DNA of 64,000 bases from an uncultured Desulfovibrionaceae bacterium (GCA_949741925.1 CATJOY010000048.1:1-64000), one strand, 5' to 3'. Counted from the stretch's first letter, positions 6,579 to 39,147 are shown. The notes: a model not told the origin generated them from the letters alone. Made by a program: numbers and translations.

Positions 6579-7110
6579 GAAAAGAAACAAAAAAACGGAA
6601 CCTGGTTCCTATACAGCAGCTTCCGCCAAAATCATATGCAACACACGAGAAAAGGAAACCGAAAAGCCCGGCCGGGTTCCGAAGGCGCTTTCTCGGTGGC
6701 ATCACGCTCCGGCGAAACTTCGCCTGAAAGGGATCGCCCCGGTGCGGTCCAGCGCCTCCTAAACCAGCCGGAGTGAAAATATACCAGGCCCGATAAAAAG
6801 CAAGAAAATTTTCTGCCCCACCAAAAGCCCCGGCCCCGGGAGCGCTCCTTGAAGAGGAGGACAGCCCCGGGCGGATCTGGATATCGTCGGCAACCGCCGC
6901 CTAAGCCACGCTGCTTTTCTCAGGCTCTTCCGCCAGAGAAAAAAGAACAGGGACGCGGGGGATTCGCCCCTTTACCCGCCGCTAAGGAAGAGCCTGTAAA
7001 AAAATAAGCCACCTCTCCATTATGAAGGCTGCAAAGAGAGCAAGGGGGGGGATTTAAAGAGCCTCGGCTCTGAAAAAATAGCCCTTCGTTCGGTTGCTGC
7101 TTCCTTGGTC

Positions 7111-7131
7111 ATCGACAGTTGTACTGTCGAT
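7111..7131 (+). repeat. Palindromic site, copy 1
   Basis: TCGACAGT-TGT-ACTGTCGA is a perfect 8-bp dyad (7112-7130) inside a 21-base unit. An inverted copy lies at 7273-7293, with one mismatch over 21 bases. The pair borders an AT-rich 141-base segment upstream of the glycan operon. It could be a double operator or the ends of a small mobile remnant. Confidence 0.75.
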
Positions 7132-7272
7132 TTTCAGGTTGCCTAAAGGAGCAAACACACCGTAACAGTATGATATACTATGATTATTTGGTAAGGGGAA
7201 AAGTGTAGATATTTTTATCGAAACAGCAAACTTGCCAAAAAGTGTTCTTAGTTGTAGGAACAAACACGATTC

Positions 7273-7293
7273 ATCGACAGTACAACTGTCAAT
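7273..7293 (-). repeat. Palindromic site, copy 2 (inverted)
   Basis: TCGACAGT-ACA-ACTGTCAA (7274-7292) is the reverse complement of the site at 7112 except for one base. It lies about 90 bases before the first glycan-island start codon, a position suitable for an operator. Confidence 0.75.
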
Positions 7294-7383
7294 AAGCATT
7301 AGGGAAAAATATCCGAAATCCGCCCCGAGGCTCCACGCTCCCTATGCCGGATTTGGCCTCCATACTGTACGCAACACCTTGAT

Positions 7384-8508
7384 ATGACAGCAAAAAATCC
7401 TTTATATATCACCAAAACCAGACTCCCTGAGCCGGTAGTTTTTTCACGATATTGCAAGGATATCTTGCAACGCGCGTGGCTCACCAACAATGGGCAATGC
7501 GTGCAGGATCTTGAACACTCTCTGAGTAAGTATCTCGGTTTATCGCAGGTGCTTGTTTGTAACAACGGAACAACAGCTCTCATGCTGGCTCTCCAGTGCG
7601 CCGGGCTGTCCGGAAAAAAAGTTGCGGTCACACCCTACACCTACGTAGCAACGCTCTCTGCCTTACTTTGGCTGCGTTGTACGCCTGTTTTTGTGGATAT
7701 TGAACCGGATACGTTCTGCCTCTCGCCGGAACTGTTGCGGGAGCGCTTTCAGCAAGAACCGGATATTGCCGGTGTACTGCCGGTGCATATCTACGGCTTG
7801 GCCTGCGATGTGGAAAGCCTGGAGGCCATTTGCCGAGAATACGGCGCTGTTCTCCTCTACGATGCGGCACAGGCCTTCGGCTCCCGGTATAAGGGCAAAA
7901 GTCTGTTAGAGTATGGCGATTACAGTGTATGCAGCTTTCATGCTACAAAAATTTTCCATACGGTGGAAGGCGGCTGCGTTGTTTCCCATACGGCGGAGGC
8001 CCAGGCAGCCCTATCGCTTGCCCGCGCCTTCGGCCATATTAACGACAGACATTACAGCTTGGGCATCAACGGCAAGATGAGTGAATTCCATGCCGCAATG
8101 GGATTATCCCTTTTACCGGGCACGGAAAAAGAAATAGCTCAACGGCGGCATCTGCACGCGCTGTATGATGCTGCTCTGGAGGAGCTTTCTCTGGTTCGTC
8201 CTGCCCGCCTGGCGGGCCTGGAGTACAACCATGCCTATTATCCCATTCTGTTCCCTGATGAGGCCTCGCTATTGCGGGTACAACGCGTTCTCCGTGAGCA
8301 CAACGTATACCCCCGTCGCTATTTTTATCCCGCGCTCAATACCCTGCCCTACCTCAAAGCGGCCTGGCGCTCGCCCTGTCCTATCGCCGAAAACGCCGCG
8401 CGGCGAGCGCTCTGTCTGCCCCTTTACGGAGCATTCCCCCCGCAGGATGCCGAGGCTGTAGCAGCATTGCTCATACGCGCCTGCCGTACTGGAGACACCC
8501 ATGCCTGA
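7384..8508 (+). CDS. PLP-dependent sugar aminotransferase, DegT/DnrJ/EryC1 family, VioA-like
   Basis: Expected to transaminate the C4 ketone of a nucleotide-linked 4-keto-6-deoxy sugar using glutamate. The 374-residue protein has the usual length. Visible features are LTNNG near residue 33, the cofactor aspartate in YDAAQAFGS (D160) and the Schiff-base lysine K189 in SFHATKIFHTVEGG. That lysine context is of the VioA type, which makes dTDP-viosamine, more than the WecE type. The ATG at 7384 is the only start preserving the family N-terminus, although its ribosome site is weak. First gene of the island; it overlaps the next gene by 8 bases. The keto-sugar substrate could come from the dehydratase at 16987. 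Confidence 0.88.
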   Translation: MTAKNPLYITKTRLPEPVVFSRYCKDILQRAWLTNNGQCVQDLEHSLSKYLGLSQVLVCNNGTTALMLALQCAGLSGKKVAVTPYTYVATLSALLWLRCTPVFVDIEPDTFCLSPELLRERFQQEPDIAGVLPVHIYGLACDVESLEAICREYGAVLLYDAAQAFGSRYKGKSLLEYGDYSVCSFHATKIFHTVEGGCVVSHTAEAQAALSLARAFGHINDRHYSLGINGKMSEFHAAMGLSLLPGTEKEIAQRRHLHALYDAALEELSLVRPARLAGLEYNHAYYPILFPDEASLLRVQRVLREHNVYPRRYFYPALNTLPYLKAAWRSPCPIAENAARRALCLPLYGAFPPQDAEAVAALLIRACRTGDTHA

Positions 8509-9649
8509 CGCGATTCTTTCCCATGTGCGCCTTGAGGCCGTATATGCCGCCGTGCCGGAGCGGGAAATCTGTATTGAAGACGAACTGGAACACTATGGGG
8601 GCAGCCGAAAAAAAGCGGAACGCGCTCGAAAAATCATCGGCACGGATAGACGACGCGTCGCTCTGCCCGGCCTGAAAACCTCTGATCTCTGCCTTGCCGC
8701 CGCCAAGCGTCTGCTTGACGAGCGCAACGTGGATCGGGCCTCCGTGGATGCCCTTATTCTGGTCACGCAGTCGCCGGACTTTGAGCTGCCGGCCACCGCC
8801 TGCCGCTTGCAGGAGGCCTTGGGTCTTTCCCGGCGCTGCGCGGCATTTGATGTCAACCAAGGCTGCTCCGGCTATGTGTACGGTTTATGGATGGCCGCAG
8901 GGCTGATTGCCTCCGGAGCCTGCGCCAAGGTTCTGCTGCTGGCCGGCGATGCAGCCTATATACCGCGTCCGATAACCAACCGCATCATTGCCCCCATTTT
9001 CGGCGACGGCGGCAGCGCCAGCCTGCTCACACGGGAGGAGGGGCTCTCCCTGGCCTTTACTCTGGGCACCGATGGTTCCGGATACAAGCACATCATTATT
9101 CCCGGCGGCCGGGCTGCTCTGCCGTATCGCCGCATATTTGAAGAAAACAAGGAATTTTTCGAGGATATCGTTGATGCCTCCGGCACTGCCTGGCGGCTGA
9201 ATGAAGTGTTTATGAACGGCAGCGCAATTTTTGATTTTACCCTCAACACCATCCCGGAACATATCAACAATGTGCTGCATCGATATAACCTCAGCCCTGA
9301 AAATATAGATTGGCTCTTTCTGCATCAGGCCAACAAACAGATTGTGGAGAGCATCGCAGATAAGGTGGGCTTTGCTCGGGAAAAAGCGCCAAGCGTTGCC
9401 TTTAGCCGCTACGGAAATCTCTCCTCAGCCTCTATTCCCGCATCGCTGTGTGAACACTTCGGCCAGAAGGGTAACAGCGGTGGAGCAGCCATGCTGCTTT
9501 GTGGGTACGGCGTGGGCCTTTCCTGGGCCTCGTGCCTTGTGCGCGGGCAGCATGTAGCCTGTGCCCCGGTCATCAACGTGCCCAACGGCGAGGATGATAC
9601 GCAAGGCGCAATGCGCTACTGGCGAAACTTCGTGCAATCGCCCGTATAG
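8501..9649 (+). CDS. 3-oxoacyl-ACP synthase III (FabH-like, VioS-type)
   Basis: Condenses an acyl-CoA starter with malonyl-ACP to give a 3-ketoacyl-ACP. The KAS III triad is complete: C122 in NQGCSGYVYG, H275 in LFLHQANKQ and N306 in SRYGNLSSAS. At 382 residues it is longer than housekeeping FabH (about 317). It sits with a sugar aminotransferase, a lone acyl carrier protein and a ketoreductase-like SDR, so a role in making the acyl group of a modified amino sugar is more likely than membrane lipid synthesis. Overlaps the preceding gene by 8 bases, implying translational coupling. Confidence 0.87.
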   Translation: MPDAILSHVRLEAVYAAVPEREICIEDELEHYGGSRKKAERARKIIGTDRRRVALPGLKTSDLCLAAAKRLLDERNVDRASVDALILVTQSPDFELPATACRLQEALGLSRRCAAFDVNQGCSGYVYGLWMAAGLIASGACAKVLLLAGDAAYIPRPITNRIIAPIFGDGGSASLLTREEGLSLAFTLGTDGSGYKHIIIPGGRAALPYRRIFEENKEFFEDIVDASGTAWRLNEVFMNGSAIFDFTLNTIPEHINNVLHRYNLSPENIDWLFLHQANKQIVESIADKVGFAREKAPSVAFSRYGNLSSASIPASLCEHFGQKGNSGGAAMLLCGYGVGLSWASCLVRGQHVACAPVINVPNGEDDTQGAMRYWRNFVQSPV

Positions 9650-9675
9650 GCGGCGTCCGGATAAGGAGAACAGGA

Positions 9676-9900
9676 ATGCACCTTGATAAATTTATACCTA
9701 TATTCCAGGATTTACTCCAACGCGATGAACCTGTTTTCGCCACAGATACGCTGGCGGATATGGAAGAATGGGATTCCCTGGCCATTATGGCGCTCATTGC
9801 CTGGTTCGACAAAAATTGTAACCTGCATCTTACCTTCCCTGATTGCAAAGCCTTGCGCACTGTGGCGGATGTGGCCGCTTTGGCGAAAATCAGGGCATGA
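9676..9900 (+). CDS. Stand-alone acyl carrier protein
   Basis: A 74-residue acyl carrier protein that would carry the growing acyl chain as a phosphopantetheine thioester. The attachment serine is S34 in MEEWDSLAIMAL, a DSL motif followed by the usual hydrophobic helix. It is distinct from a housekeeping AcpP in sequence and setting. AAGGAG precedes the ATG. The stop overlaps the next start as ATGA. Its partner enzymes are presumably the adjacent KAS III and SDR. Confidence 0.85.
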   Translation: MHLDKFIPIFQDLLQRDEPVFATDTLADMEEWDSLAIMALIAWFDKNCNLHLTFPDCKALRTVADVAALAKIRA

Positions 9901-10649
9901 ACATGTTCCAGGGCAAAGATGTCATCCTGGTCACCGGAGCCAGTTCCGGCATTGGCCGCGCCACAGCCCTGCTCTGTAACCGGGCCGGGGCCACCGTCAT
10001 TGCCTCCGGACGCAACACAGCAGCCTTACAGACCTTAGGCGACATCTGCGCCGCGCCGGACCGTCTGCACGCGGAACCATACGACCTATGCGCGGATCTC
10101 AACAATCTGCCCGTCTGGATTCAGGATTTGCGCCGACGCTACGGCAAATTGCGGGGGATGGCCTTCTGCGCCGGGCAAACCTGGAACCTGCCCATGAGCC
10201 AATACTCGCCGGAAACGGCTAACCAGGCTTTTGCTATCTGCTGCCACGCCCCGCTTATGGCCGCGCGCGGCTTTTGCGACCGCCGCAACAATACGGGACA
10301 GGGGGCGGCTCTGGTTTTTATTGCCGCAGCGGCAGCTCTTGATCCTAATCCTGCTCAGGGCGTTTACGGCGCGGCCAAAGCGGCGTTGGTCGCGGGCGCG
10401 CGTTGTCTTTCCAAGGAAGTGGCCGGGCGCGGCATCCGGGTCAACTGTATTTCTCCCGGTCTGGTGCAAACGCCCATGATGGAAGAAACGGTGCGCCAAC
10501 TGGGCCGGGAGTTTCTGGAGCAGGAGGCCCCCCTGTACCCTCTGGGTTTTGGCAACGCCGAAGATGTAGCGCATCTGGCAGCCTTTCTGCTCTCGGACGC
10601 GGCGCGCTGGATCAGCGGGCAGAACGTGCCCTTAACAGGAGGACGCTGA
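9897..10649 (+). CDS. Short-chain dehydrogenase/reductase, 3-oxoacyl-ACP reductase-like
   Basis: A 250-residue classical SDR with the NADP site VTGASSGIG (residues 12-20), YGAAK (Y157, K161) and the FabG-like RVNCISPGLVQTPM. Beside KAS III and ACP the expected reaction is reduction of 3-ketoacyl-ACP to 3-hydroxyacyl-ACP. One oddity: the catalytic serine normally 13 residues before the tyrosine is alanine (A144, within FIAAAAALDP), so activity may be reduced, altered or absent. Start taken as the ATG overlapping the previous stop; a second ATG lies two codons downstream. Overlaps the next gene by one base. Confidence 0.82.
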   Translation: MNMFQGKDVILVTGASSGIGRATALLCNRAGATVIASGRNTAALQTLGDICAAPDRLHAEPYDLCADLNNLPVWIQDLRRRYGKLRGMAFCAGQTWNLPMSQYSPETANQAFAICCHAPLMAARGFCDRRNNTGQGAALVFIAAAAALDPNPAQGVYGAAKAALVAGARCLSKEVAGRGIRVNCISPGLVQTPMMEETVRQLGREFLEQEAPLYPLGFGNAEDVAHLAAFLLSDAARWISGQNVPLTGGR

Positions 10650-11311
10650 TGCGACGCGTATTGATCATCGGCAACAGCGGCGCGGCGCGGGAGTGCTACT
10701 GGCTATTCAACGACATGATACAGGCGAATCCCGCTCTGGGGCAAAGCCACCACTTTGGCGGTTTTCTCTCTTGGCGGGGGTTTCCGGCCAATCTTAAGAG
10801 CCTGGAAAGGCTGCTGCTCGGTGAGGCTGAGGCGCACGAAATCCGTGAGGATGACCGCTTTGTCATTGGCATTGCTGATCCGAGCATACGACGTGCCGTC
10901 TTCGATTCGTTCAAGGCCCGGGGAGCGCGCTTTATGACCCTGTGCCACCCCTGGGCGGATATCTCCCCCACGGCCGCCCTGGGCGAAGCCAATATCTTTC
11001 AGCGCGGCAGCACGGTTTTTTGCGATGTAACCGTGGGCAATGCCAATTACTTCAACGGAGCCGTCAATTTATCCCATGATGTGGCAATAGGGAATTACAA
11101 TTTTGTGGGCCCCTTTTCCCTTTTTCTCGGCGGTAGTCGCGTGGGCGAAGAAAACATGATCGCCACGCAATGCACCTTGCTGCCCAAGGCCCGTATCGGC
11201 AACCGCAATATTCTTGCTCCGGGCAGCTTTGTGTACAAAGGCTGCCGCGATAACTGCCGCCTGGCAGGGAACCCCGCCCTCAACCTGGGGCCTGTGGAGG
11301 AAACGGCATGA
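10649..11311 (+). CDS. PglD-like hexapeptide-repeat sugar N-acyltransferase
   Basis: A 220-residue protein with an N-terminal Rossmann half (RRVLIIGNSGAARECY) and a C-terminal left-handed beta-helix built of hexapeptides (region about 115-205, for example IGNYNFVG and IGNRNILAPG). PglD-type enzymes acylate the C4 amine of a UDP-sugar, and the histidine in NLSHDVAIGNYN occupies the expected catalytic position. Here the acyl donor could be the hydroxyacyl-ACP made by the three preceding genes instead of acetyl-CoA; this is inference. AGGAGGA precedes the ATG, which overlaps the preceding stop, and the stop overlaps the next start. Confidence 0.82.
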   Translation: MRRVLIIGNSGAARECYWLFNDMIQANPALGQSHHFGGFLSWRGFPANLKSLERLLLGEAEAHEIREDDRFVIGIADPSIRRAVFDSFKARGARFMTLCHPWADISPTAALGEANIFQRGSTVFCDVTVGNANYFNGAVNLSHDVAIGNYNFVGPFSLFLGGSRVGEENMIATQCTLLPKARIGNRNILAPGSFVYKGCRDNCRLAGNPALNLGPVEETA

Positions 11312-12498
11312 GCGCCCCCCATCTTGTTCTGTTCATGGGCAGCGAGTGCAGCGGCATGTACACTCTGGCCAAAACCTTCGATACTATGGGCCTGCGCTGC
11401 GGCCTGCCGTTCGCCTCGTTGCGCAATCCGCTGACAATACGGCATATGCCCCCGCATGGGGGGCTATGGTATTGGTCGGCCATCCGTCGTTTTTTTGAAG
11501 ATACGGGCCTGCCCCCCATTGCCGAAGTGCCGGATGAACGTATCAGCCCGGAAGAACGGGAGTATTACATCCGCCTTATAGCGCGCTGCCTTGGGCAACT
11601 TCTGCAAGAGGGCTCCTTTCTCTGCGCCGATCACCTCACCCCCCTGGTTTTGCCGCTGGTCCTCCAGGCCATAGAAAAACTCAATATTCGCACAGAAATG
11701 TATTTTTTCTTTTCCCATCCGGCGCGCGAAATGGCTGCTTTGCGGCGGATCCAGGGGCAGGCGGCCCGGTTAAGCGAATACGCTTGGCGCAACACGGCGG
11801 CAGCGGCCATCCGCCATGGCGGTCGGCGGGTGCGTTTTATAGAGGCGGATGCTTTGGAGCTCGCCGCCTGGCGGCCTGTGGCGCGCGAGATTGCGGCGTT
11901 TTTTGGCCAGGATGCGGCAGCCTTAACAAAACATTATAGTGTACCATCCGCGGAACCTCTGCCCTCATCGGAAGAAGCAATGCTCTCGCCGCTATCGCAT
12001 CAGCTTTATGAGGCCTTGCGCAGCTATACCCAGGGAGGAGACTGGCAACCCCTGGAAGCGGCGGCCCACACCGTTTACTCCGCCCAGGTGGAACAAAGCG
12101 GCTGGCAGTATGTGGATTGTCTTGACTGCGGCGCCCTGGATGCCCACGCCCGGCGGCTGCTGGCCCGAGCCGGGAAGCCATCGCAACCTGACGGGAAGGA
12201 GCCCTCTGCCGTCTATTCTGGCCTCCCCCTGCTGCCGGAGGAGCAGGCCGACTGGCTGGCGCTGTTGGATACAACGGAACGTAAGCTGCTGGAAGCCCGG
12301 CAGGATTTTGAAAGCAGGCTTTTTCTGCACAGTGATAGCCTGCACCGCCACTACATGCACTGCCTGGAGGATGAACGCCGCTTACAGGAACAGGCTGCTT
12401 GCCGAGAAAAAGAAAAAATGCGGCAGCGCCGCCATCGACACAGCGCGCGGCTGCGGGCTCTATGGGAAAAACTGCATGCGCGGCAGGGCGAGGCATGA
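11308..12498 (+). CDS. Sulfotransferase-like protein with a C-terminal coiled coil (tentative)
   Basis: A 396-residue protein with no clear named family. Residues 5-30 (LVLFMGSECSGMYTLAKTF) resemble the 5'-phosphosulfate-binding loop of glycan sulfotransferases, which usually reads like GMHRSGTSL. Residues 131-150 (FFFSHPAREMAALRR) resemble the 3'-phosphate-binding segment. The loop is non-canonical, so activity with PAPS is uncertain. Residues about 330-396 are rich in charged heptads and likely coiled. It sits mid-operon with ATGA overlaps on both sides, so it is expressed with the glycan genes. It could instead be a structural or scaffold protein. Confidence 0.45.
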   Translation: MSAPHLVLFMGSECSGMYTLAKTFDTMGLRCGLPFASLRNPLTIRHMPPHGGLWYWSAIRRFFEDTGLPPIAEVPDERISPEEREYYIRLIARCLGQLLQEGSFLCADHLTPLVLPLVLQAIEKLNIRTEMYFFFSHPAREMAALRRIQGQAARLSEYAWRNTAAAAIRHGGRRVRFIEADALELAAWRPVAREIAAFFGQDAAALTKHYSVPSAEPLPSSEEAMLSPLSHQLYEALRSYTQGGDWQPLEAAAHTVYSAQVEQSGWQYVDCLDCGALDAHARRLLARAGKPSQPDGKEPSAVYSGLPLLPEEQADWLALLDTTERKLLEARQDFESRLFLHSDSLHRHYMHCLEDERRLQEQAACREKEKMRQRRHRHSARLRALWEKLHARQGEA

Positions 12499-14345
12499 TT
12501 ATTCGCAAATCATCCGCCCGAAGCCGGCTGTTGCGTTTTGGTTGTAGCGGGGATTGTGTCGATGTGCCCCCGGAGGCATTGAATGCCCTGCTGTATTCCC
12601 TGCCCTCGTCCATGGAGCGCCCCCTCTCCGCCCTGCCCGTAAAATGCCGCCGCCTGGCCCGCGTAGCCATGATTGCCAGCCCGCGCGTGCATGACGGCTT
12701 TGCCTGGCACAACACCTGTTACGAGCTCATGCCGAGCACATGGCAAGCTATCTTGCGTCTGGCCCGTCCTGATTATCTGCTGGTGGAATCCTGCCTGTAC
12801 GACAGCGCCCGTGCCTGGCCTCTGGCCGGCTATACTCCCGCCTATGCCGGGCACCTTCGCGCTTTGGCGGAAACGGCGCGCAAAGCAGGCGTGCCCTGCG
12901 TCTTCTGGTACACGCTGGGCGAGGACATGCTGGATTTCTTTATGGAAGGCATGCGCGCCTTTGATGTTGTGGGCTGTGCCGACGCGCGAGCCCTAGAGCG
13001 CCTGAATTGCAGCGGCATAGCAGCCCGCCCTCTGCCCTGGGCCTTCGCTCCCGAACAGTTTAACCCGCTGACCAATTTCAAATTGGCGGAATATCCGCCC
13101 CTTCTGCTCTTTGACGGCATTGCCCGCATGCTGCGCTTTCCCCACATCAGCAATACGCTGGAAGGCCTGCGAAAGGCTGATTTACACATCATAGATACAG
13201 GTATGCTGAGTTCTCCCTATAACCTAGGGCACTTTCGGCATAAAGCCCTGGCAGCCCGCGTTCACGGCATTGTTTCGCAAACCGTTGCACAAGAACTCTA
13301 CAAGACGGCCGGAGCCTATCTTTCCATAGAGGATGCGCCGGGCAGCTTTCCCCCAGCCCAGCAGTGGCGCTGTCTGGAAGCCGCGGCATGCCGCTGCCCG
13401 GTATTACACTGCGGCAGCGCCGGAGACAATGCAGCCTTGCTCAAGGAAGTGGCCGAGATTCTTCCCTCCGCGGAGGCTGTAACCATACGTTCTGCGGATT
13501 TGTTTTCCCGGCCGCTGGAGCGGGAACGGGCAGGCCATTTGGCCTGGCGGGCAGCACACAGCCGCCATACCTTTGCCCACCGCATGGAAGCCATCCATAG
13601 CTGGCTCGGCATCGCAGGCACTCCGGTGCCCATGCCGCCGGTAAGCATCATCACCCCCAGCATGCGGCCTGAAAATCAAAACCACGTCTTGCGGCAATAC
13701 GAGCGCCAGACCTACCCCCATAAAGAACTTATCTATGTCTTTAACGGCGATGCGGCACATGCTCCATCGCTACCGGCAGGCAGAGAGGATATGCATATTC
13801 TCTGTGTGCCGCGCGAATATTCCACGGGCATGGTCATGAATGCCGGTTTGCAGAAGGCCACAGGCGAATATGCCTTTAAGCTGGATGACGATGATCTGTA
13901 TGGAGATCAGTATGTTGCTGACAGAATGATTTATTTTCGGGAATTTTCCATCGCGGCTTTGGGCACCACCCGATCCTTTTTTGTATTTAAAGGCGACTCG
14001 GAAGCGTTTTCAATCAATAAGCAAAAGCCTCGCCAAGATTGTATTGCCAGCAGCCTTGGCAATGTAGAGTATACACTCTCCAGTTTTACCGGAGCTACCG
14101 TCGCTATGTCGCGTGCTCACGCCCTGGCTATAGGCTATCAGGAGCAGACCTATGCTAATGCGGATGTGAGCTTTTTATTTAAAAATATTTTTTTTGCGCC
14201 ACACTTGGGCTGCGTCAATATGGACAGGCTGAATTTCTGTGTTCAGCGGGGTAATCCTCAAGAACACACATGGGCAGCCAGCCGTGATGAACTGCGCCTC
14301 ATGGGCAGTGGTGAAAGTGCACGGCTGGAAGAAATCTTTCTGTAA
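12495..14345 (+). CDS. Two-domain glycosyltransferase: CgeB-like GT-B domain plus GT2 domain
   Basis: A 616-residue protein with two transferase units. Residues about 55-370 resemble CgeB/spore-maturation-type GT-B proteins (LVESCLYDS, LGEDMLDFF, RCLEAAACRCPVLHCG). Residues 382-610 are a GT-A family 2 domain with VSIITPSMRPENQ and the metal-site acidic run FKLDDDDLYGDQY (D464-D467). Two units could add two sugars or one repeat. The start is the ATG overlapping the previous stop (ATGA). Cytosolic; no membrane segment is visible. Confidence 0.75.
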   Translation: MIIRKSSARSRLLRFGCSGDCVDVPPEALNALLYSLPSSMERPLSALPVKCRRLARVAMIASPRVHDGFAWHNTCYELMPSTWQAILRLARPDYLLVESCLYDSARAWPLAGYTPAYAGHLRALAETARKAGVPCVFWYTLGEDMLDFFMEGMRAFDVVGCADARALERLNCSGIAARPLPWAFAPEQFNPLTNFKLAEYPPLLLFDGIARMLRFPHISNTLEGLRKADLHIIDTGMLSSPYNLGHFRHKALAARVHGIVSQTVAQELYKTAGAYLSIEDAPGSFPPAQQWRCLEAAACRCPVLHCGSAGDNAALLKEVAEILPSAEAVTIRSADLFSRPLERERAGHLAWRAAHSRHTFAHRMEAIHSWLGIAGTPVPMPPVSIITPSMRPENQNHVLRQYERQTYPHKELIYVFNGDAAHAPSLPAGREDMHILCVPREYSTGMVMNAGLQKATGEYAFKLDDDDLYGDQYVADRMIYFREFSIAALGTTRSFFVFKGDSEAFSINKQKPRQDCIASSLGNVEYTLSSFTGATVAMSRAHALAIGYQEQTYANADVSFLFKNIFFAPHLGCVNMDRLNFCVQRGNPQEHTWAASRDELRLMGSGESARLEEIFL

Positions 14346-14388
14346 ATCTTTCTTTGAATTTTTTGATGCTGTAACCCGGCGAGGTATC

Positions 14389-15216
14389 ATGCCTACTGTC
14401 AATGAACTCTATCTTGATGCTATACAAGGACAACTTCTTGCACAGTCCTCATGGTACGATCTCCATAATATGGATAGGCGCCGCTCCGTATCAAGGCGTC
14501 TTGCCAATCAGTTCCTTAAAATGCAAAAGCCGCTCGGAGCCACCTGTTTTCTAGAAGTCGGAGCCCATGAAGCCGCCTTTTCTCTCGCCGCGCGGCAGAG
14601 ATATCCGAATGCCTCTATCTATGCCTTTGAAGCCAATCCCCACGTCTATAAAAAATATTGCACACAGTTCGCCCCGGAAAGCGGCTTAACCATTCGATAC
14701 GAAAATATCGCCGTAGGCAATAACGACGGCATGATTGATTTTTTGCTGGCCGAGGAAATCAACGGCCTCGAAGAACCTTTTGAAAGCAGCAGAAACAGCA
14801 TTCTGCCGCGCGTCGGCACAGGGCATAGGTATCAACGCGCCGCCGTCCCTATCACCCGCCTCGCTACCTTTGCTGCAAGAGAATCCTTACACAAGGAAAC
14901 ATTCTGCTTATGGATTGACGCGGAAGGCTCCAGCCGCCAGGTCCTGGAAGGGGCACAACCATTACTGCCGCGCGTTGCATCCATGCTCATAGAAGTAGAG
15001 CTTGAACCCATATGGGAAGGGCAATGGACTGTAGGACCGCTGATACTTTGGTGTAGAGAGCAGGGGTTTATCCCTGTGCTTCGTGATTTTGCTCGGCCAC
15101 GTCAGTACAATTGTCTCTTTGTAAATCTTGCCTTCTATCCACGGGTGGAAAACAGTATTTGGCACTATATTCAAGATACAATTACAGAGCGGTTACAGTA
15201 TATTAAGGAATCATAA
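14389..15216 (+). CDS. FkbM-family methyltransferase
   Basis: A 275-residue SAM-dependent methyltransferase. The AdoMet site is visible in CFLEVGAHEAAFSLAARQ and the acidic strand IYAFEANPHVYK, followed by the FkbM-type WIDAEGSSRQVLEGA, which in the family follows the pattern DxEGxExxVLxG. FkbM enzymes O-methylate sugars or polyketides, and one occurs in several flagellin glycan islands. The ATG at 14389 has GAGG upstream; 43 bases separate it from the preceding gene, the largest gap in the first half of the operon. Confidence 0.8.
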   Translation: MPTVNELYLDAIQGQLLAQSSWYDLHNMDRRRSVSRRLANQFLKMQKPLGATCFLEVGAHEAAFSLAARQRYPNASIYAFEANPHVYKKYCTQFAPESGLTIRYENIAVGNNDGMIDFLLAEEINGLEEPFESSRNSILPRVGTGHRYQRAAVPITRLATFAARESLHKETFCLWIDAEGSSRQVLEGAQPLLPRVASMLIEVELEPIWEGQWTVGPLILWCREQGFIPVLRDFARPRQYNCLFVNLAFYPRVENSIWHYIQDTITERLQYIKES

Positions 15217-15217
15217 A

Positions 15218-16930
15218 ATGCGTATTGCATTGGTAACATTTTATGATGGCGCGGGTAGCGGCGTTCGAGTTCTTGGCTCGCTTGCCCAAAGCAAAGGGCA
15301 TGAAGTCCGGCTTTTCATACTTCATCACTTCAGAATTATAGAAAACAACACCCCTCTCCAGTGCCCGAATGCTATGCAAAGCATTTGTAACGGCTCCTTT
15401 CGAGTAAAAAAAAGCGATGTGTACCCCATTACGGAGCATGAAATAGAGCTTTGCATCGCGGCGCTGGTTGAAGGGCAGTACGATCTTATTGCCCTCTCCA
15501 GTCGCAGCACAGATATGCCCGAAGCCTTACGCCTCATTACTCGACTCCGGCAAACGCTGCCACAAGTCCGGTTGATCGCGGGCGGTCATGGCCCTACATA
15601 TAATCCCGAGGCATATCTAAAAAGCGGCGTGTCATGGATCGTCAGGGGCGAGGGGGAAGGGGCTTTTCTTGATATACTCGATGCTCTGCATCAACAGAAA
15701 GATTGCGCGGCCATCAAAAATTTAGCCTTTCTCACCCCCGGTGGTCTCCAATGCAATGAACTGCGCCCTTTTATCCGCCATTTTGACGCATTGCCCCTCC
15801 CCCTCATCAGCAACGATCATGTTGTTTATATTGAAGACAATACGGCTTCCTGCAAAGATCCTCAAGCCGGCCTGCGCCGGTACGGCACGGCCTTAGGTCG
15901 GGGCTGCATCGGCAAATGCACCTACTGCGGCTCCGAATCGTGGAACAGGCTGGTATCCGCAACCTCAGGTTGCGGCGCTCTTTACCGCCATAAACCTTTT
16001 GATAAGTTTTTGGACGAACTGGAGCAGGCAAAAGAAAACGGCGCACAGTATATTGTTTTTAATGATGAGTACTTAGTGCTTTCATTGCCGGACATGCTGC
16101 GCCTGTTTACGGCATACAAAAAACGTATTGATTTGCCTTTTTCCGTCAACCTCCATCCCCGGCAGCTCCTGGACAACACGGAACTTTTTGAAGCGGTTCT
16201 GGAAGCTGGTCTGGATGCTTTTACTATCGGTTTTCAATCGGGATCTGAAGAATTCTCCCGAACTATCTTCCATAGAGCATTACGCTTTGACCAGCTCTTG
16301 ACTCTTGCTTCTCGTCTCTATGAACGTGATATTGCCATTGCCTCGCATTTTATTAGCGGCGCTACGTTCAATACTGATGAAGAATGGTACAGCAAGCTGC
16401 GTCTTGTATCTCAAATTCCCTTTGATCCCATGAATTCACGGCATTCCATGATAATGGATTTTCAATATATGCCAACGCCGGGTTCCAGATTGTGCGAGGC
16501 GACGAATCATAGGCGCATACCAACGGAAGAATGGGCTCAGAGGGCACTCTGTGTGCAATTGCGCCATATTGCCACCGATTCGGAATTTGAGGAAACAGTA
16601 CAGAGCCTGAACGGCACTTCCCCCCAAGAGCTTGCCCGGCGCTATGCGCTGATAAAACAAAAAAGAGCCGAGGAATATCGGCAAAACGTCATTGCCCTTT
16701 GCAAAACAGCCGAAACCGCCATTATCTATGACGACACGGCTTCGGCAGACCACCGAAAACATCTTGCCGATCTACTGCCCAAAGCTCGCCTGCTGCATGT
16801 GCGAGGGCTGTCGTCTTCCTCTTTCTCCTCCGGAACAACGGTCATTTGCCTGAGTAAAAATACGCTGGCACTCAGTAAAACAATAAAAAAGTATTCCTTT
16901 CGGAAAGTATTTGCTTGGGCAAGCGAATAA
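15218..16930 (+). CDS. B12-binding radical SAM protein
   Basis: A 570-residue class B-type radical SAM enzyme. The N-terminal 150 residues form a cobalamin-binding Rossmann fold lacking the DxHxxG lower-ligand motif. The cluster motif CIGKCTYC (C230, C234, C237) starts the radical SAM barrel, followed by GFQSGSEEF. Such enzymes usually methylate unactivated carbon or phosphorus centres. In this island a C-methylation of a sugar or of the acyl chain is a reasonable guess; the substrate cannot be read from the sequence. AAGGA precedes the ATG, one base after the FkbM stop. Confidence 0.78.
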   Translation: MRIALVTFYDGAGSGVRVLGSLAQSKGHEVRLFILHHFRIIENNTPLQCPNAMQSICNGSFRVKKSDVYPITEHEIELCIAALVEGQYDLIALSSRSTDMPEALRLITRLRQTLPQVRLIAGGHGPTYNPEAYLKSGVSWIVRGEGEGAFLDILDALHQQKDCAAIKNLAFLTPGGLQCNELRPFIRHFDALPLPLISNDHVVYIEDNTASCKDPQAGLRRYGTALGRGCIGKCTYCGSESWNRLVSATSGCGALYRHKPFDKFLDELEQAKENGAQYIVFNDEYLVLSLPDMLRLFTAYKKRIDLPFSVNLHPRQLLDNTELFEAVLEAGLDAFTIGFQSGSEEFSRTIFHRALRFDQLLTLASRLYERDIAIASHFISGATFNTDEEWYSKLRLVSQIPFDPMNSRHSMIMDFQYMPTPGSRLCEATNHRRIPTEEWAQRALCVQLRHIATDSEFEETVQSLNGTSPQELARRYALIKQKRAEEYRQNVIALCKTAETAIIYDDTASADHRKHLADLLPKARLLHVRGLSSSSFSSGTTVICLSKNTLALSKTIKKYSFRKVFAWASE

Positions 16931-16986
16931 CAGGGGCAAACAGATAGGCATTTGAGCGATGTGGGGAATGTAAAGGAACACCACTC

Positions 16987-18015
16987 ATGAACAAAAAAAA
17001 TATTGTCGTTACCGGATGTTGTGGCACGATCGGGCACGCGCTCCTGCATGCGCTGGACGAGTATCCCCAGTACGCAAATGTCTTAGGCATAGATAATGAT
17101 GAAAGCGGATTGTTTGCTCTGGAGCAGATGTTTCATGGAAAATTTCGCTTCGCCTATGGCGATATACGCGACAGGCAGCGCCTTGAAATCCTGTTTGGCG
17201 GTATGGATATTGTCTTGCACACGGCAGCTCTCAAACATGTAGCCTCCTGCGAGCTGGCTCCTTCCGAAGCGGTCAAGACCAATATCCTTGGCGTGAACAA
17301 TATTATCGAAGCTGCGCGGCGCGCCGGAGTGAAGCGTGTGCTTTTCACCTCCTCGGATAAGGCGGTCAACCCTACCAATGTTATGGGAACCAGCAAGCTC
17401 ATGGGCGAACGCCTGATGAGCGCCGCTCAGGCCTCGTCCGGCAGTCAGGAAACAGGCGTGTTTTTCTCCACGCGATTCGGCAATGTACTGGGTTCACACG
17501 GCTCTGTTTTTCCGTTGTTCCAACAGCAGATCGCCCGGGGCGGCCCCGTGACGTTGACCGACCCGGAAATGACCCGCTTTGTCATGAACACACGCGATGC
17601 CGTAAGGCTGGTTCTGGAAAGCTTGGATCTGGCCCGGGGAGGAGAGGTTTTTGTCTCTAAAATGCGCGCCCTGCGCATAGCGGATTTGGCGGCGGTCATG
17701 ATCGATTGCCTGGCGCCTCACTACGGTCTGCAGCCGAAAAACATTGCCGTCAACGTCATTGGGCCCAAGCCCGGAGAAAAGCTTTACGAAGAACTGCTGA
17801 CGGAAGAAGAAAGCCACCGTTCTTTGCAACTCGCGAATTTTTATGTTGTTCTGCCTGCCTTTAGAAATTTGTACGGCGTAGACTACACGTATGAGACCGC
17901 GCACCCCCGCGGGAAAGGCCAAACCTATCGCTCGCACGAGCAACCCCTCCTCAACCGAGAGGAAATAGCCGTCTACTTGCGCGAGAGCGGCTTGTTGCCG
18001 CGGGAGGAGGCATAG
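16987..18015 (+). CDS. Nucleotide-sugar 4,6-dehydratase, CapD/FlaA1-like SDR
   Basis: A 342-residue extended SDR, the soluble short form of the CapD family. Visible are VVTGCCGTIG at residue 7, the catalytic S-D-K in LFTSSDKAVNPTNVMG (S123, D124, K125), methionine M133 in place of tyrosine as in this family, and K137. Related enzymes turn UDP-GlcNAc into a 4-keto-6-deoxy sugar, sometimes with C5 inversion. It probably feeds the VioA-like aminotransferase. AAGGAA lies before the ATG. Its preference for UDP or dTDP sugars cannot be told here. Confidence 0.85.
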   Translation: MNKKNIVVTGCCGTIGHALLHALDEYPQYANVLGIDNDESGLFALEQMFHGKFRFAYGDIRDRQRLEILFGGMDIVLHTAALKHVASCELAPSEAVKTNILGVNNIIEAARRAGVKRVLFTSSDKAVNPTNVMGTSKLMGERLMSAAQASSGSQETGVFFSTRFGNVLGSHGSVFPLFQQQIARGGPVTLTDPEMTRFVMNTRDAVRLVLESLDLARGGEVFVSKMRALRIADLAAVMIDCLAPHYGLQPKNIAVNVIGPKPGEKLYEELLTEEESHRSLQLANFYVVLPAFRNLYGVDYTYETAHPRGKGQTYRSHEQPLLNREEIAVYLRESGLLPREEA

Positions 18016-18016
18016 T

Positions 18017-19225
18017 ATGGGCAAACATATCTGCATTCTTGGCGGGGACGGCTATTTGGGCTGGCCTTCGGCTATGCGTTTCAGCGCTCTGGGCTATGAC
18101 GTTACCGTGGTGGATAACTATCTGCGCCGGGAACTCTGCGCGCAGTATGGATTGGATTTTCTCTACCCCGTACCGCGTCTGAAGCAGCGCGTTGCCCTGT
18201 GGGAAGCAGTAAGCGGACGGCGTATCCACTTGGCTGAACTTGATCTGGCAGATCCTGAGAACATGCGCGCCTTGTTCAACCCCACCGGCTACGAGCGGCT
18301 CTGCGACGCGCCGTGGCCGGGAGCGCCCGAAGCCGTGCTGCACTATGCGGAGCAGCCTTCCGCTCCGTTTTCGCAACGGGATTACCGCTGTACCGATCTG
18401 ACTCTTGTTAACAACCTGCGCGTCACCTCCAATTTGCTCTGCGCTGTACGCGATTTGAGCCCGCGCAGCCATATTGTTCATATCGGCACCATGGGGGAAT
18501 ACGGCACACCCAATATCGACATTGAGGAAGGGTGGCTGGATATTGCCCACAAGGGCCGTCATGATCGTTTTCTCTTCCCCCGGCAAGGGGCTTCCGTCTA
18601 CCACACGACCAAAATCATGGATACGGATTTGATGTGGTTTTTTGTTCGGGCCTGGAAACTCCGGGTGACGGACCTCATGCAGGGGCCGGTCTATGGTCTG
18701 GAAACGGAAGAAAGCCGCGCTACCCCCGAACTGCGTCCCTATTTCAACTATGATGACCAGTTCGGCACAGTTATCAACCGCTTTATTGTCCAGGCTGTGG
18801 CGGGGCATCCTCTGACCGTTTACGGCAAGGGTGGGCAGACTCGCGGTTACATCAATATCACCGACACCCTGCAATGTGTGGTTGCGGCTGTGCAGCACCC
18901 GGCCCAAGCCGGAGAGTTGCGCATTTTCAACCAGATTACAGAAACCTTCAGCGTGCGGGAACTAGCCCGACGCGTCCGGGAGGTCGGGCGGAAGCGAGGC
19001 CTCAAGGTGGCTATAGAGCATGTGGAAAACCCGCGCACTGAAGCCGAAGAACACTATTATAACCCCACCTACCAAGCCCTACGTGAATTGGGCGTTGTGC
19101 CGCACCCCCTGGATAATGCAACACTGGACAGCATGTTTGACATCGTACAGGGGTATGCCGCCCGTATTCATCCGGAGATTATTTTTCATCCTCTACAGCA
19201 ACGTCAACCAAGAGAACAGGATTAA
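18017..19225 (+). CDS. UDP-sulfoquinovose synthase (SQD1/SqdB-like)
   Basis: Expected to convert UDP-glucose plus sulfite into UDP-6-sulfoquinovose with bound NAD. The 402-residue protein matches plant and cyanobacterial SQD1 from end to end: GGDGYLGWPSAM, IGTMGEYGTPNIDIEEG with T158, SVYHTTK with Y195 and K199, the run GHPLTVYGKGGQTRGY (residues 263-278), and NPRTEAEEHYYNPTY near the C-terminus. This near-identity at the diagnostic motifs separates it from generic epimerases. GGAGGAGG precedes the ATG one base after the dehydratase stop. No sulfolipid synthase (SQD2) is in the window, so the product more likely enters a surface glycan. Confidence 0.9.
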   Translation: MGKHICILGGDGYLGWPSAMRFSALGYDVTVVDNYLRRELCAQYGLDFLYPVPRLKQRVALWEAVSGRRIHLAELDLADPENMRALFNPTGYERLCDAPWPGAPEAVLHYAEQPSAPFSQRDYRCTDLTLVNNLRVTSNLLCAVRDLSPRSHIVHIGTMGEYGTPNIDIEEGWLDIAHKGRHDRFLFPRQGASVYHTTKIMDTDLMWFFVRAWKLRVTDLMQGPVYGLETEESRATPELRPYFNYDDQFGTVINRFIVQAVAGHPLTVYGKGGQTRGYINITDTLQCVVAAVQHPAQAGELRIFNQITETFSVRELARRVREVGRKRGLKVAIEHVENPRTEAEEHYYNPTYQALRELGVVPHPLDNATLDSMFDIVQGYAARIHPEIIFHPLQQRQPREQD

Positions 19226-19230
19226 CGCCC

Positions 19231-21201
19231 ATGCCCAGACTTTTGCTGTATACTGATCTCTCTGCTCGTTATGGCTCCACATTCACAGCATTGGCGGGAC
19301 AACGCCTTCTGCTTGAGCAGCAGGGTATTTTCATGCCGTTTCTCCTATCTGACTTTGGTGTGCCGTCGCATAGCCGATTATGGGCGTATGCAAATAAACT
19401 GCAGGAATGCCCTCCGGAAGATATTACCAAGATGCTTCAAGAGCTGCAGCATCTTGCCGATGAAGGGCGGGATATCCTGCTGTATTGTGCATCGGTGCGA
19501 CCCGTATTGCATCAGAATGTGCTTAATCGACTTCGGCACATACCGGCACTAAAATCATATCAGCTCCACATGCTGTTCACCCTAGGGCGTATGGCCTGCG
19601 GTGTTGAACAGGACATACGCAGAATACAGTATAGGCGGGGAGCCATGCCTCCGCTTTCAGCCATGATCGATCTTGTTCGACGCCGGTATCTTGTAGCGGA
19701 TTTGCTTGTTCTGGCGAACGAAGAATGCGGCAACGATCGGGTTGACGTGGTGGTGGACAACAGCGTTTCGTGTGTGGATAAAGGTGATCCCGCTCTGCTG
19801 GAAAAAGTCTTTAGCCGCCTGGGATGTCCAACGCCGGAGAGCATACCGCCGCGCTCCATCGCAGGACTTGCCTCACAGCGAAACGCACATTTCGTTACCC
19901 TGCTGGGCACACAGAATAACCAATGGCCGCCCATAGACGAGGCCGCCGTCATTCAGCGCTTACAGCGGCAGGAGGCCGGCGGGTCTTTTGAAGCCTGGTT
20001 GGCAAGCCCGTCTGCTGTACGAGCCCAAGCCTTGGAGCGGGAACAGGAGGTCTTGCCTCGCCTGGTGGAACTTGCTGCGTGCTCCGCGGAGGATCTCTGT
20101 ATGCCCCCAGCCTTGTATCCACACATGCCGCACTCCGTATGCTCAGCATTGACAGAGCGGGAAGCGCGGGATTTTGTCGCTGTTTTGCCGTCCGAGGCCA
20201 GGGCAGCGCTGCAACGCCTTTTGGCGCAGAACATATCTGTATTGTCGTCGGAAGAACGTCTGCTGGCCTCCGTCCTTGTTCCTGAAGCCCTCTGCCGCCC
20301 GGAGCCGCTGCTCACCGTGCTCACTCTGGCCTACAATCAGGCAAGGTACATAGGTGAAGCCATTGAAAGCGTTTTGGCGCAACAAACGGATTTTCCCGTG
20401 GAACATATTATTGTTGACCATTGCTCCACGGACGGCACCCAAGATATTATTACGGCCTATGCAGAAAAACATACAAGCATCAGGCCTGTATTGCTGCCGC
20501 GCAGAACCGGCAATGGGGTCAACGTACAGGCCCTGTTCAGCCGCTGCCGTAGCAAATATGCCGCTCTCTGCGATGGCGATGATTACTTTACTGATCCGTT
20601 GAAACTGCAAAAGCAAGTAGATTTTCTGGAGGCCCACCCGGAATGCAGCCTCTGCTTTCATCCTGTAGACGTGGTCTATGAGGATGGTTCACCCTCGCGG
20701 GTTTTCCCTCCGGTAGATATTTTGCCCGGCGGTATACGTAAATTCTATACTCTCAAAGACCTTTTGTTCACGAACCTTATCCAGACAAATTCCGTTGTCT
20801 ATCGCTGGCGTTTTCGCGAAGGACTGCCGGAGTGGTTTGACGCTTCCCTGATTCCCGGCGATTGGTACTGGCATCTGCTGCACGCGGAAACAGGCCTTAT
20901 CGGCTATCTCCAAGACCATATGGCGGTCTATCGCCGCCATGCAACTTCACTGTATGCCACGGCGGAAGTCGATCACGTCACCCACCGGGGAGTGCACGGC
21001 CTCAATGAATTACGCGCCTACAGCGTCTGCAACAGGCATTTCCGCGGTCGCTACGCTAAGGATTTTCAACAACTGGCTTTTGGAGTCTTTGCGGACCTTC
21101 TGCACATATATATCGAAACAGAGGACAATACACTCTTCGAGCAAGCTTGTTCCCTTTGTCCGGACTTTGCCCGGGGCTTTCTGGCGCATCTGGATATGTA
21201 A
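19231..21201 (+). CDS. Large GT2-type glycosyltransferase
   Basis: A 656-residue protein and the last gene of the island. Residues about 364-600 form a family 2 GT-A domain: LLTVLTLAYNQARYIGEAIE, HCSTDGTQDI and the metal-site CDGDDYFTDPLK. The substrate end has PGDWYWHLLHAE. The first 350 residues match nothing I recognise; they are globular, with no signal peptide or membrane segment, and could bind the protein or glycan acceptor. Five bases separate it from the SQD1 gene. Confidence 0.75.
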   Translation: MPRLLLYTDLSARYGSTFTALAGQRLLLEQQGIFMPFLLSDFGVPSHSRLWAYANKLQECPPEDITKMLQELQHLADEGRDILLYCASVRPVLHQNVLNRLRHIPALKSYQLHMLFTLGRMACGVEQDIRRIQYRRGAMPPLSAMIDLVRRRYLVADLLVLANEECGNDRVDVVVDNSVSCVDKGDPALLEKVFSRLGCPTPESIPPRSIAGLASQRNAHFVTLLGTQNNQWPPIDEAAVIQRLQRQEAGGSFEAWLASPSAVRAQALEREQEVLPRLVELAACSAEDLCMPPALYPHMPHSVCSALTEREARDFVAVLPSEARAALQRLLAQNISVLSSEERLLASVLVPEALCRPEPLLTVLTLAYNQARYIGEAIESVLAQQTDFPVEHIIVDHCSTDGTQDIITAYAEKHTSIRPVLLPRRTGNGVNVQALFSRCRSKYAALCDGDDYFTDPLKLQKQVDFLEAHPECSLCFHPVDVVYEDGSPSRVFPPVDILPGGIRKFYTLKDLLFTNLIQTNSVVYRWRFREGLPEWFDASLIPGDWYWHLLHAETGLIGYLQDHMAVYRRHATSLYATAEVDHVTHRGVHGLNELRAYSVCNRHFRGRYAKDFQQLAFGVFADLLHIYIETEDNTLFEQACSLCPDFARGFLAHLDM

Positions 21202-29432: not shown

Positions 29433-29894
29433 TTATGTGGCGTTTTGCGGCTTTACATTTTTCAGGTACAGCTTTTCCGGGGCTTCGCCATCAGCCTGGG
29501 GGGCCTGAAGCCCGATGCGGGCTTCATGATTGATTAAAATCGGACCGGTTAAGTTGAGGGCGGTTTCTTCGGGTTTGCCCGGGGGAATCGCCACGGTGAC
29601 CAACACCGTCAATTGCTCCTGGCGTTCCACCCGGAGCAATTTTTGTTCGGTATCGCCGACCTTGACGGTATATTCAGGCAAAAAGCCGTAGGGTTCAGCC
29701 ACCAGCAGGCCGAGACCGGATTCTTCCACGCTTTGCAGCACCAGGAAGGGCACATCAGGCTTGATCTGCAGTAGGGTAAAATCTTTCCGATTCTCGAAAC
29801 CAATAAGGCCGCGAGGAAAGTGGATCACCTTATCCCACTGCACCACCTGTCTGCCAAGACGGGTTTCTATTACTTTTTCGCTGTACTCTGCCAT
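29433..29894 (-). CDS. fliW: Flagellar assembly factor FliW
   Basis: Binds CsrA and flagellin alternately, so translation of flagellin mRNA is tuned to flagellin secretion. The 153-residue protein has [32 protein letters not shown] and [14 protein letters not shown], all typical. Its start lies inside the csrA gene (25-base overlap), so the two are translationally linked. An extension after residue 130 is slightly longer than in Bacillus FliW. Confidence 0.94.
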
Positions 29895-30109
29895 AGTTGC
29901 GTTGCCGCCAACAAATCGTGGTTATTGGTTTCCAGGGCCTTTCTGTTCTCATCCTTGACGCGCAGGTACACTTCTTCCCTGTAGACCGTCATCTCCCCGG
30001 GGACGCTGAGCCCCAGCTTCACCTGCTTGCCCTGCACGCTGAAGACGGTGATGATGATGTCATCGCCCAGGTGGAGGCTTTCACCGGCTTTTCTTGTCAG
30101 GATCAGCAT
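29870..30109 (-). CDS. csrA: Carbon storage / translational regulator CsrA
   Basis: Small RNA-binding dimer that represses flagellin translation until sequestered by FliW. The 79 residues begin [20 protein letters not shown] and include [11 protein letters not shown], which forms the RNA-binding strands together with the [10 protein letters not shown] region. The C-terminal tail is longer than in gamma-proteobacterial CsrA, as usual where FliW is present. It starts 13 bases after flgL, and no strong ribosome site is visible, suggesting coupling to flgL. Confidence 0.95.
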
Positions 30110-30122
30110 AGCGCCGCATTGC

Positions 30123-31700: not shown

Positions 31701-31713
31701 GCCGTCCTCCGGC

Positions 31714-33906: not shown

Positions 33907-34376
33907 TACAATCTCCCGTTGATGAGCGCCGCGCCCGGACGAGGTTCACGGTAGGCGCCGCTGGCGTCATAAACAACCTGTTGTTTGGGGGTTACCTGCT
34001 CGTAGAGGTAAGTCATCAAAGAATGGTTCTGGTCCAAAAGGGCCAAGGAAAGCTCACAGTTATGGGTGGCCTGGCGCGCCGCGGCTTGTTCTGCATCGTC
34101 AATTTTCTGTGCCAAGTCGCGGATGGCCTCGCCCTCTTCAGGGGCGAGCATATCCGCGTATTCGCTGAGCTTGGTGCCCTGCATCACATTTTTGACGGCC
34201 ACGCGCTCGACAGCCAATTGACGGAGCAATTCGTGGATGGAGAATTCAAGGCTTCCCACAGCCTCGGTATCGCCAACGCGCAGCAGCTCGAATTCCTCAT
34301 GCAAAAGAGATTGGAGGAGCTCAAGCCCCTTCCGTTGCCGGACCAAGTTGCTGTATATCAGTACGTAGCTGCTCAT
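33906..34376 (-). CDS. flgN: FlgN-type export chaperone
   Basis: A 156-residue helical protein expected to chaperone FlgK and FlgL before export. It begins MSSYVLIYSNLVRQRKGLEL, has the FlgN-like helical pattern (LLQSLLHEEFELLRVGDTEAV) and ends in a disordered PRPGAALINGRL tail. Sequence conservation in this family is low; the position directly before flgK is the best support. GGAGA lies before the ATG at 34376. It is first in its transcript, behind an RpoN-type promoter. Confidence 0.85.
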   Translation of the reverse strand: MSSYVLIYSNLVRQRKGLELLQSLLHEEFELLRVGDTEAVGSLEFSIHELLRQLAVERVAVKNVMQGTKLSEYADMLAPEEGEAIRDLAQKIDDAEQAAARQATHNCELSLALLDQNHSLMTYLYEQVTPKQQVVYDASGAYREPRPGAALINGRL

Positions 34377-34456
34377 GACGATTCTCCTGAAAATATCTTT
34401 TTTCCGAGGCCCTGCCCCGGGCCACACCCGGCAGACTTTGCCCGTATCGCATATCC

Positions 34457-34472
34457 TGCAAGTTCCATGCCT
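34457..34472 (-). promoter_or_regulatory. RpoN (sigma-54) promoter for flgN-flgK-flgL-csrA-fliW
   Basis: On the minus strand AGGCATGGAACTTGCA places GG and GC exactly 10 bases apart and matches TGGCACG-N4-TTGCA at most positions. It lies 81 bases upstream of flgN and just after the flgJ terminator. Confidence 0.7.
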
Positions 34473-34542
34473 ACTTCAAAACACACCAGGTCCGATCGAC
34501 GCGAGAAAAAACGCCGGATATCCGGCACAAACGGCGGTAAAC

Positions 34543-34574
34543 AAAAACCGGGCGGAACTTACGGATTCCGCCCG
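34543..34574 (-). terminator. Terminator after flgJ
   Basis: A 10-bp stem (34565-34574 with 34548-34557) followed on the minus strand by TTTTTGTTT. It separates flgI-flgJ from the flgN transcript. Confidence 0.88.
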
Positions 34575-34600
34575 GCCTTATCTTCAAAGGAAAAGCGGCT

Positions 34601-39106: not shown

Positions 39107-39147
39107 AACTATACCCTCCCTTACAGATATGCGCCGAAAACGCCGCC

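Follow-up and report, generated by a model that had tools for sequence, protein, structure and literature searches.

The window analyzed here, 64 kb at the start of a 174-kb contig in the genome of an uncultured Desulfovibrionaceae bacterium (2.79 Mb, 98% complete), contains a 12-gene island at positions 7384-21201. Its most valuable lead is a pair of adjoining genes, one encoding a CapD-like dehydratase and the other a homolog of the UDP-sulfoquinovose synthase SQD1; the SQD1 family and the viosamine-type island are themselves already known. Sequence comparisons place the SQD1-like enzyme in a sister clade that has Pro in place of Arg101 and that lies outside the characterized SQD1/SqdB set, and the pair, together with the features of this clade, suggests that a sulfonated surface sugar is made by a route not yet described. 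Sulfoquinovose is among the largest organic sulfur pools, and to our knowledge all of its known synthesis relies on one enzyme type with UDP-glucose as the substrate. If the proposal developed below is true, nonphotosynthetic bacteria in many phyla equip their surfaces with sulfonated sugars of a second, so far unrecorded class, and gut and marine sulfonate degraders would have new sources and substrates.

The SQD1-like protein (18017..19225, + strand) matches the Arabidopsis SQD1 structures over its full length at 370 bits, and its sole strong profile match is UDP-sulfoquinovose synthase (NF041015). It scores 378 bits against this profile and Arabidopsis SQD1 scores 479, both under the cutoff of 575, which we did not use as a test because Arabidopsis SQD1 itself fails it. 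The SQD1 fold signature and the YHxxK motif are present, and the short-chain dehydrogenase/reductase (SDR) residues and TMGEYGTPNIDIEEG are intact. The catalytic Thr/Tyr/Lys, His95, Met145, Tyr148, and GEYGTPN are all retained and are near-invariant in 116 homologs, across which the SQD1/Agl3 catalytic residues Met145, Tyr148, Tyr182, His183, and Lys186 are likewise almost invariant. In the alignment, the Arg101 of SQD1, SqdB, and Agl3 corresponds to a Pro in the window protein, within the segment AEQPSAPF. The Arg101Ala variant of Agl3 is inactive (PMC4388408).

A scan of 84,980 genomes returned at least 585 SQD1 relatives, of which the best 80 loci were read. Among the 116 aligned homologs, 102 have Pro and 14 have Arg at position 101, and a single branch of the tree (support, 90) separates 100 bacterial Pro-type sequences from the 14 Arg-type sequences, the two haloarchaeal Pro sequences being placed apart from the bacterial clade. 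The Arg group holds Arabidopsis SQD1, the SqdB proteins of sqdBDC-like operons (Marinovum and Sinorhizobium), and a copy adjoining a 3′-phosphoadenosine 5′-phosphosulfate (PAPS) reductase gene. Going by record titles and tree labels, the Pro type extends over at least 11 phyla (Pseudomonadota, Thermodesulfobacteriota, Bacteroidota, Chloroflexota, Planctomycetota, Nitrospirota, Nitrospinota, Actinomycetota, Acidobacteriota, Myxococcota, and Fidelibacterota). Two variants of the arrangement were seen in passing. The haloarchaeal SQD1-like genes, on Natrinema and Haladaptatus plasmids (L167 and L169), have Thr at Met145 besides the Pro at Arg101, are each followed by two more SDR genes, and form a separate lineage without CapD. 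One bacterial locus (L034, genome G184) has two Pro-type homologs, at 7404-8549 and 11767-13005, around its CapD gene, the second being very diverged, with His for Tyr148.

The Pro-type clade is tied to its CapD-like partner. A CapD-like homolog occurs in 74 of the 80 Pro-type loci, directly upstream of the SQD1 homolog in 56, and in none of 12 Arg-type loci (Fisher P = 5e-11, from an Arg-type sample that is small and half drawn from plasmid records with 3- to 5-kb flanks); none of 16 comparison loci has one either. In relatives of the window SQD1 homolog, the usual gene just upstream is a CapD-like one (47 to 55% identical), and in 35/80 Pro-type loci an epimerase-like third SDR is encoded within 2.5 kb. 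In the window, the CapD-like dehydratase (16987..18015, + strand; PF02719 [Polysacc_synt_2], 292 bits) has an SSDK...Mx3K signature. Its nearest solved relative is Pen (6BWC), a UDP-N-acetylglucosamine (UDP-GlcNAc) 5,6-dehydratase, at 254 bits versus at most 194 for 4,6-dehydratases (148 for PglF), and the Desulfatibacillum alkenivorans partner is also nearest to Pen (273 bits versus 204).

Use of sulfite by the clade is likely, because five Pro-type loci have a PAPS reductase above its curated cutoff beside the pair, in the same operon. These are from Histidinibacterium, two members of the Saprospiraceae/Saprospirales, and two Chloroflexota, thus spanning Alphaproteobacteria, Bacteroidota, and Chloroflexota, and the usual arrangement is CysH-SDR-CapD-SQD1 with the genes touching. 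On the assumption of a 3.5-Mb genome with one or two PAPS reductase copies, chance alone would give about 0.25 to 0.5 such loci (P = 7e-6 to 2e-4). Seven further Pro-type loci contain CysC/CysN-type sulfate activation genes, which would serve sulfotransferases too. The sequence-only reading had assigned UDP-sulfoquinovose as the product of the SQD1 homolog. Sulfonation is plausible, and the PAPS reductase neighbors in other clade members argue for the use of sulfite, but the product need not be sulfoquinovose, because a clade with Pro for Arg101 is fixed to a Pen/CapD-like partner.

The first five genes of the island are consecutive and together supply all five functions for an acyl-amino sugar. 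They encode a VioA-like DegT/pyridoxal phosphate aminotransferase (7384..8508, + strand; PF01041, 269 bits), predicted to be a dTDP-4-keto-6-deoxyglucose 4-aminotransferase; a VioS-like 3-ketoacyl-ACP synthase III (KAS III; 8501..9649, + strand; PF08541/PF08545) with its catalytic Cys, His, and Asn intact; an acyl carrier protein (ACP; 9676..9900, + strand) with a DSL phosphopantetheine site, just over the PF00550 cutoff at 21.3 bits; a VioR-like SDR ketoreductase (9897..10649, + strand; PF13561, 137 bits) that keeps its Tyr and Lys; and a VioB/PglD-like hexapeptide N-acyltransferase (10649..11311, + strand). The top NCBIfam match of the aminotransferase, at 214 bits, is DesI, a dTDP-4-dehydro-6-deoxyglucose aminotransferase and its nearest curated match. 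The acyltransferase scores 111 bits against TIGR03570 (NeuD/PglB/VioB-type; cutoff, 161), and its PDB relatives include PerB and VioB. Alignment of 17 homologs confirms the Cys-His-Asn triad of the KAS III, and the ACP also keeps its serine in alignment. A source of dTDP-4-keto-6-deoxyglucose is present in the genome, since an RmlB encoded elsewhere in it scores 457 bits against TIGR01181 (cutoff, 365). KAS III relatives occur in 13 of 198 genomes searched, in five genera, several with the whole vio set in identical order, so that the gene order of the island recurs in other Desulfovibrionaceae. An N-(3-hydroxyacyl) 4-amino-4,6-dideoxy sugar is thus the likely product of genes 1 to 5, and this half of the sequence-only reading is upheld by the gene set, the gene order, and the retained catalytic residues. 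CapD was also considered as the supplier of the VioA substrate and ruled out by the 16 comparison loci, which are other glycan or genome loci and include 13 with KAS III or vio sets; because these vio-set loci have no CapD homolog, the CapD-like gene is unnecessary for the acyl-amino-sugar half.

We favor, at a confidence somewhat short of even, a reading in which the island encodes the synthesis and attachment of a short surface glycan with two unusual sugars, one acyl-amino and one sulfonated. From the observed gene content, homology, residue pattern, pairing statistics, and PAPS reductase linkage, we infer the substrates, the step order, and the acceptor. VioA-type transamination would convert dTDP-4-keto-6-deoxyglucose from the chromosomal RmlB to a 4-amino-4,6-dideoxy sugar, while KAS III and ACP would give a 3-oxoacyl-ACP that the SDR reduces to 3-hydroxyacyl-ACP, and the PglD/VioB-type enzyme would transfer the 3-hydroxyacyl group to the 4-amine. 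Methyl groups may be added by an FkbM methyltransferase and a B12 radical SAM enzyme, and two glycosyltransferase proteins would link the sugars.

The Pro-type SQD1 and its CapD/Pen-like partner would work as one sulfonating unit. SQD1 itself carries out C4 oxidation, water loss to a 4-keto-5,6-ene, sulfite addition, and C4 reduction, and without sulfite it acts as a 5,6-dehydratase (PMC8987622). The Pro-type enzyme may have passed the dehydration to its partner while retaining oxidation, sulfite addition, and reduction, which the loss of Arg101 fits, because Arg101Ala abolishes Agl3 activity. The CapD-like enzyme would then dehydrate a UDP-hexose to a 5,6-ene, the substrate being perhaps UDP-GlcNAc, a guess made because this is the substrate of Pen. 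The Pro-type enzyme would oxidize C4, add sulfite at C6, and re-reduce C4 to yield a UDP-6-sulfo sugar, perhaps 6-sulfo-N-acetylquinovosamine rather than sulfoquinovose. In its most specific form, which we put forward only tentatively, the proposal is that the pair constitutes a split UDP-sulfosugar synthase present in at least 11 phyla, making a sulfonated amino sugar (e.g., UDP-6-sulfo-N-acetylquinovosamine) for capsules, O-chains, or protein glycans and joined here with an acylated viosamine-like sugar.

Several results weigh against this picture. The host genome encodes no dsrA, Sat, NIR_SIR sulfite reductase, CysH, or AprA of cutoff grade; its CysD and CysNC suffice for PAPS but not for sulfite. 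At the position of the Pen Tyr, the CapD-like protein carries Met, the Pen-type signature being [ST]DK...Yx3K and that of the WbpM/PglF 4,6-dehydratases being TDK...Mx3K. The same Tyr-to-Met change, within an SSDK/STDK...Mx3K motif that is mostly SDK rather than TDK, occurs in nearly all partners, so that the Pen-type signature is lacking and the enzyme may yield a 4-keto-6-deoxy sugar because of its WbpM/PglF-type Met. The SQD1 homolog of the window sits on a long branch (0.99), SQD1 and CapD codiverge significantly though only modestly (Mantel r, 0.32), and 6/80 Pro-type loci, some truncated by contig ends, are without a CapD homolog. In the acyl-amino-sugar half, the triad Ser of the VioR-like SDR is replaced by Ala, likewise in its nearest homolog (L063).

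In a rival account, possible though on balance doubtful to us, the Pro-type SQD1 sulfonates nothing and serves instead as an epimerase, oxidase, or isomerase that acts with the CapD-like enzyme toward an ordinary 4-keto-6-deoxy or deoxy-amino sugar, sulfate entering only as an ester by way of sulfotransferases. The replacement in all bacterial clade members of an Arg that is essential in Agl3, a host genome that makes PAPS and has no known sulfite route, and the precedent of a two-SDR sequence in which Pal follows Pen all agree with it, as do the CysC/CysN genes and sulfotransferases of several clade loci, which fit PAPS use. Yet the PAPS reductases in five CapD-SQD1 operons yield sulfite, not sulfate esters, and the near-invariance of Met145, Tyr148, Tyr182, His183, and Lys186 also speaks against this account. 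Were the enzyme instead an ordinary UDP-sulfoquinovose synthase, using the universal UDP-glucose, with CapD making another sugar of the same glycan, then the SQD1 fold and signature, the 370-bit match to Arabidopsis SQD1, and the single strong profile match would follow readily. We consider this unlikely, given that Arg101 is Pro throughout the clade and that CapD is fixed to the Pro clade across phyla and never found at Arg-type loci, which is hard to square with an unrelated sugar.

It is also conceivable, though we give it little credence, that two independent pathways with separate acceptors have been patched together in the island and are kept side by side only by horizontal transfer. In most relatives the vio set lacks an SQD1, the other loci read have SQD1-CapD but no vio set, and the GC content along the island ranges from 0.50 to 0.60. 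The genes nevertheless share one strand and overlap, and the terminal glycosyltransferase, past SQD1, is of the vio-linked type. Moreover, a locus in another genus (L066, genome G042) unites KAS III, ACP, SDR, PglD, FkbM, B12 radical SAM, and family 2 glycosyltransferase (GT2) genes with a different SqdB type, the Arg type, all in one direction within 12 kb and adjoining an integrase-like open reading frame (ORF). This locus makes two in which an acyl-amino-sugar set is combined with an SQD1-family enzyme, the SQD1 type differing between them.

The family of the host had led us to assume a dissimilatory sulfite supply, which is ruled out by the absence of dsrA, Sat, and sulfite reductase from the genome. 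Because these, namely dsrA, Sat, NIR_SIR sulfite reductase, and AprA of cutoff grade, are missing, this Desulfovibrionales genome is apparently not that of a sulfate reducer. Its CysD and CysNC genes lie in an operon with an SsuA/SsuB-type transporter (G000:C56, about 90.8-97.2 kb; L174, 6840-13190), following a 596-amino-acid protein without an NCBIfam match.

Flagellin, which the sequence-only reading named, with other surface structures as the alternative, as the probable carrier of the glycan, finds no support as the target. The flagellin gene is at C38, and nothing else connects the island with flagella than a flagellar operon that lies 8 kb away, behind housekeeping genes. By reading, that operon (29433-41338, − strand) contains FliW, FlgL, FlgK, and FlgJ-, FlgI-, FlgH-, FlgA-, and FlgG-like genes. 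No homolog of flagellin, FlgK, FlgL, or FliW lies near the vio loci or radical SAM homologs of the relatives read.

Of the remaining island genes, that at 11308..12498 (+ strand) encodes an orphan with a C-terminal coiled coil, probably a diverged sulfotransferase. It has no Pfam match (and no sulfotransferase Pfam match even at E 5), no homolog among 198 relatives, and a degenerate P-loop (GSECSGMYT in place of GSGRSGTS), so that its earlier sulfotransferase-like label has weak support, the link being an hhalign match to the sulfotransferases of SQD1-CapD loci (86%, with 16% identity); an ab initio fold was left unused (pLDDT, 43). The two-domain glycosyltransferase that follows (12495..14345, + strand), described earlier as CgeB/GT2, falls just below both Pfam cutoffs (PF13524/PF00535), but its homologs adjoin other SQD1-CapD pairs (L004, L006, L088, L093, L114, and L137). 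Two of these loci, from Halomonas (L088) and Pseudomonas (L093), hold CysNC/CysC, WecB- and WecC-like genes, CapD, SQD1, a CgeB-like glycosyltransferase, a coiled-coil sulfotransferase, and a 775-amino-acid protein, and they have a CapD-SQD1-CgeB-sulfotransferase block in common with the window. The FkbM methyltransferase (14389..15216, + strand; PF05050, 50 bits) is 37% identical to its homolog in the L066 vio/SqdB locus. The B12-binding radical SAM enzyme (15218..16930, + strand; PF02310 and PF04055) has the CxxxCxxC motif and few relatives (8/297 genomes, its own counted), three of which (in G042, G086, and G113) have a KAS III set about 17 kb away or closer. The last gene encodes a large GT2 (19231..21201, + strand; PF00535, 83 bits) that probably belongs with the acyl-amino-sugar half, because its closest homologs accompany vio sets in two relatives (L064 and L203).

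The ORFs bear out the description of the island as 12 codirectional, largely overlapping genes: all 12 are on the + strand, start with ATG, and have no internal stops, and most neighboring pairs overlap by 1 to 8 bp or are separated by 1 to 60 bp. ORF picking was homology weighted. The island sits amid housekeeping genes, with fusA/rpsG/rpsL (− strand) on its left and miaB (− strand)/gltX on its right. No Rfam elements were found at 6-23 kb of the window. Directly 5′ of the island (7106-7298) are two 21-bp palindromes, at 7111-7131 (ATCGACAGTTGTACTGTCGAT) and 7273-7293 (ATCGACAGTACAACTGTCAAT), which are mutual inverted repeats with 141 nucleotides between them (chance expectation, 0.01). A copy of the pair whose AT-rich inner sequence is related lies at C20:35722/35886, and a single arm lies at C35:108, both at contig ends and away from glycan genes; the pair could be an element resembling a miniature inverted-repeat transposable element, an invertible element, or a regulatory one.

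The earlier statement that no described system has this combination holds in the searchable literature, but the acyl set also accompanies an Arg-type SqdB in a second genus (L066). Papers that name sulfoquinovosamine, pair CapD with a UDP-sulfoquinovose synthase, or evidently describe the combination in Desulfovibrio did not turn up, which is a weak negative, as most subscription papers were outside the search. Among known systems, the flagellin viosamine island of Pseudomonas syringae (vioA, vioM, vioT, vioS, vioB, vioR, and acp) and orfA-orfN of Pseudomonas aeruginosa PAK share with the window island the A, S, ACP, R, and B functions, a methyltransferase, and a glycosyltransferase (PMC3927599). 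Unlike the window island, they have no reported sulfonate enzyme, CapD, FkbM, or B12 radical SAM enzyme, and the P. syringae target is flagellin, a link unsupported here. The Pen/Pal system of Bacillus thuringiensis resembles the island in its two-SDR arrangement, with the CapD-like protein closest to Pen, but the second enzyme of the island is SQD1-like rather than Pal-like, Met replaces the catalytic Tyr, and no pseudaminic acid genes were recognized. The sqdBDC-like operons of Marinovum and Sinorhizobium and the L066 locus combine an SQD1 relative with glycosyltransferases, as the island does, but have an Arg-type enzyme and no CapD. With SQD1, SqdB, and Agl3 themselves, the island enzyme shares the extended SDR fold, the NAD-binding GGDGYLGW, TMGEYGTPNIDIEEG, and YHxxK, while it differs in the Pro at Arg101, the separate clade, and the near-constant CapD-like neighbor.

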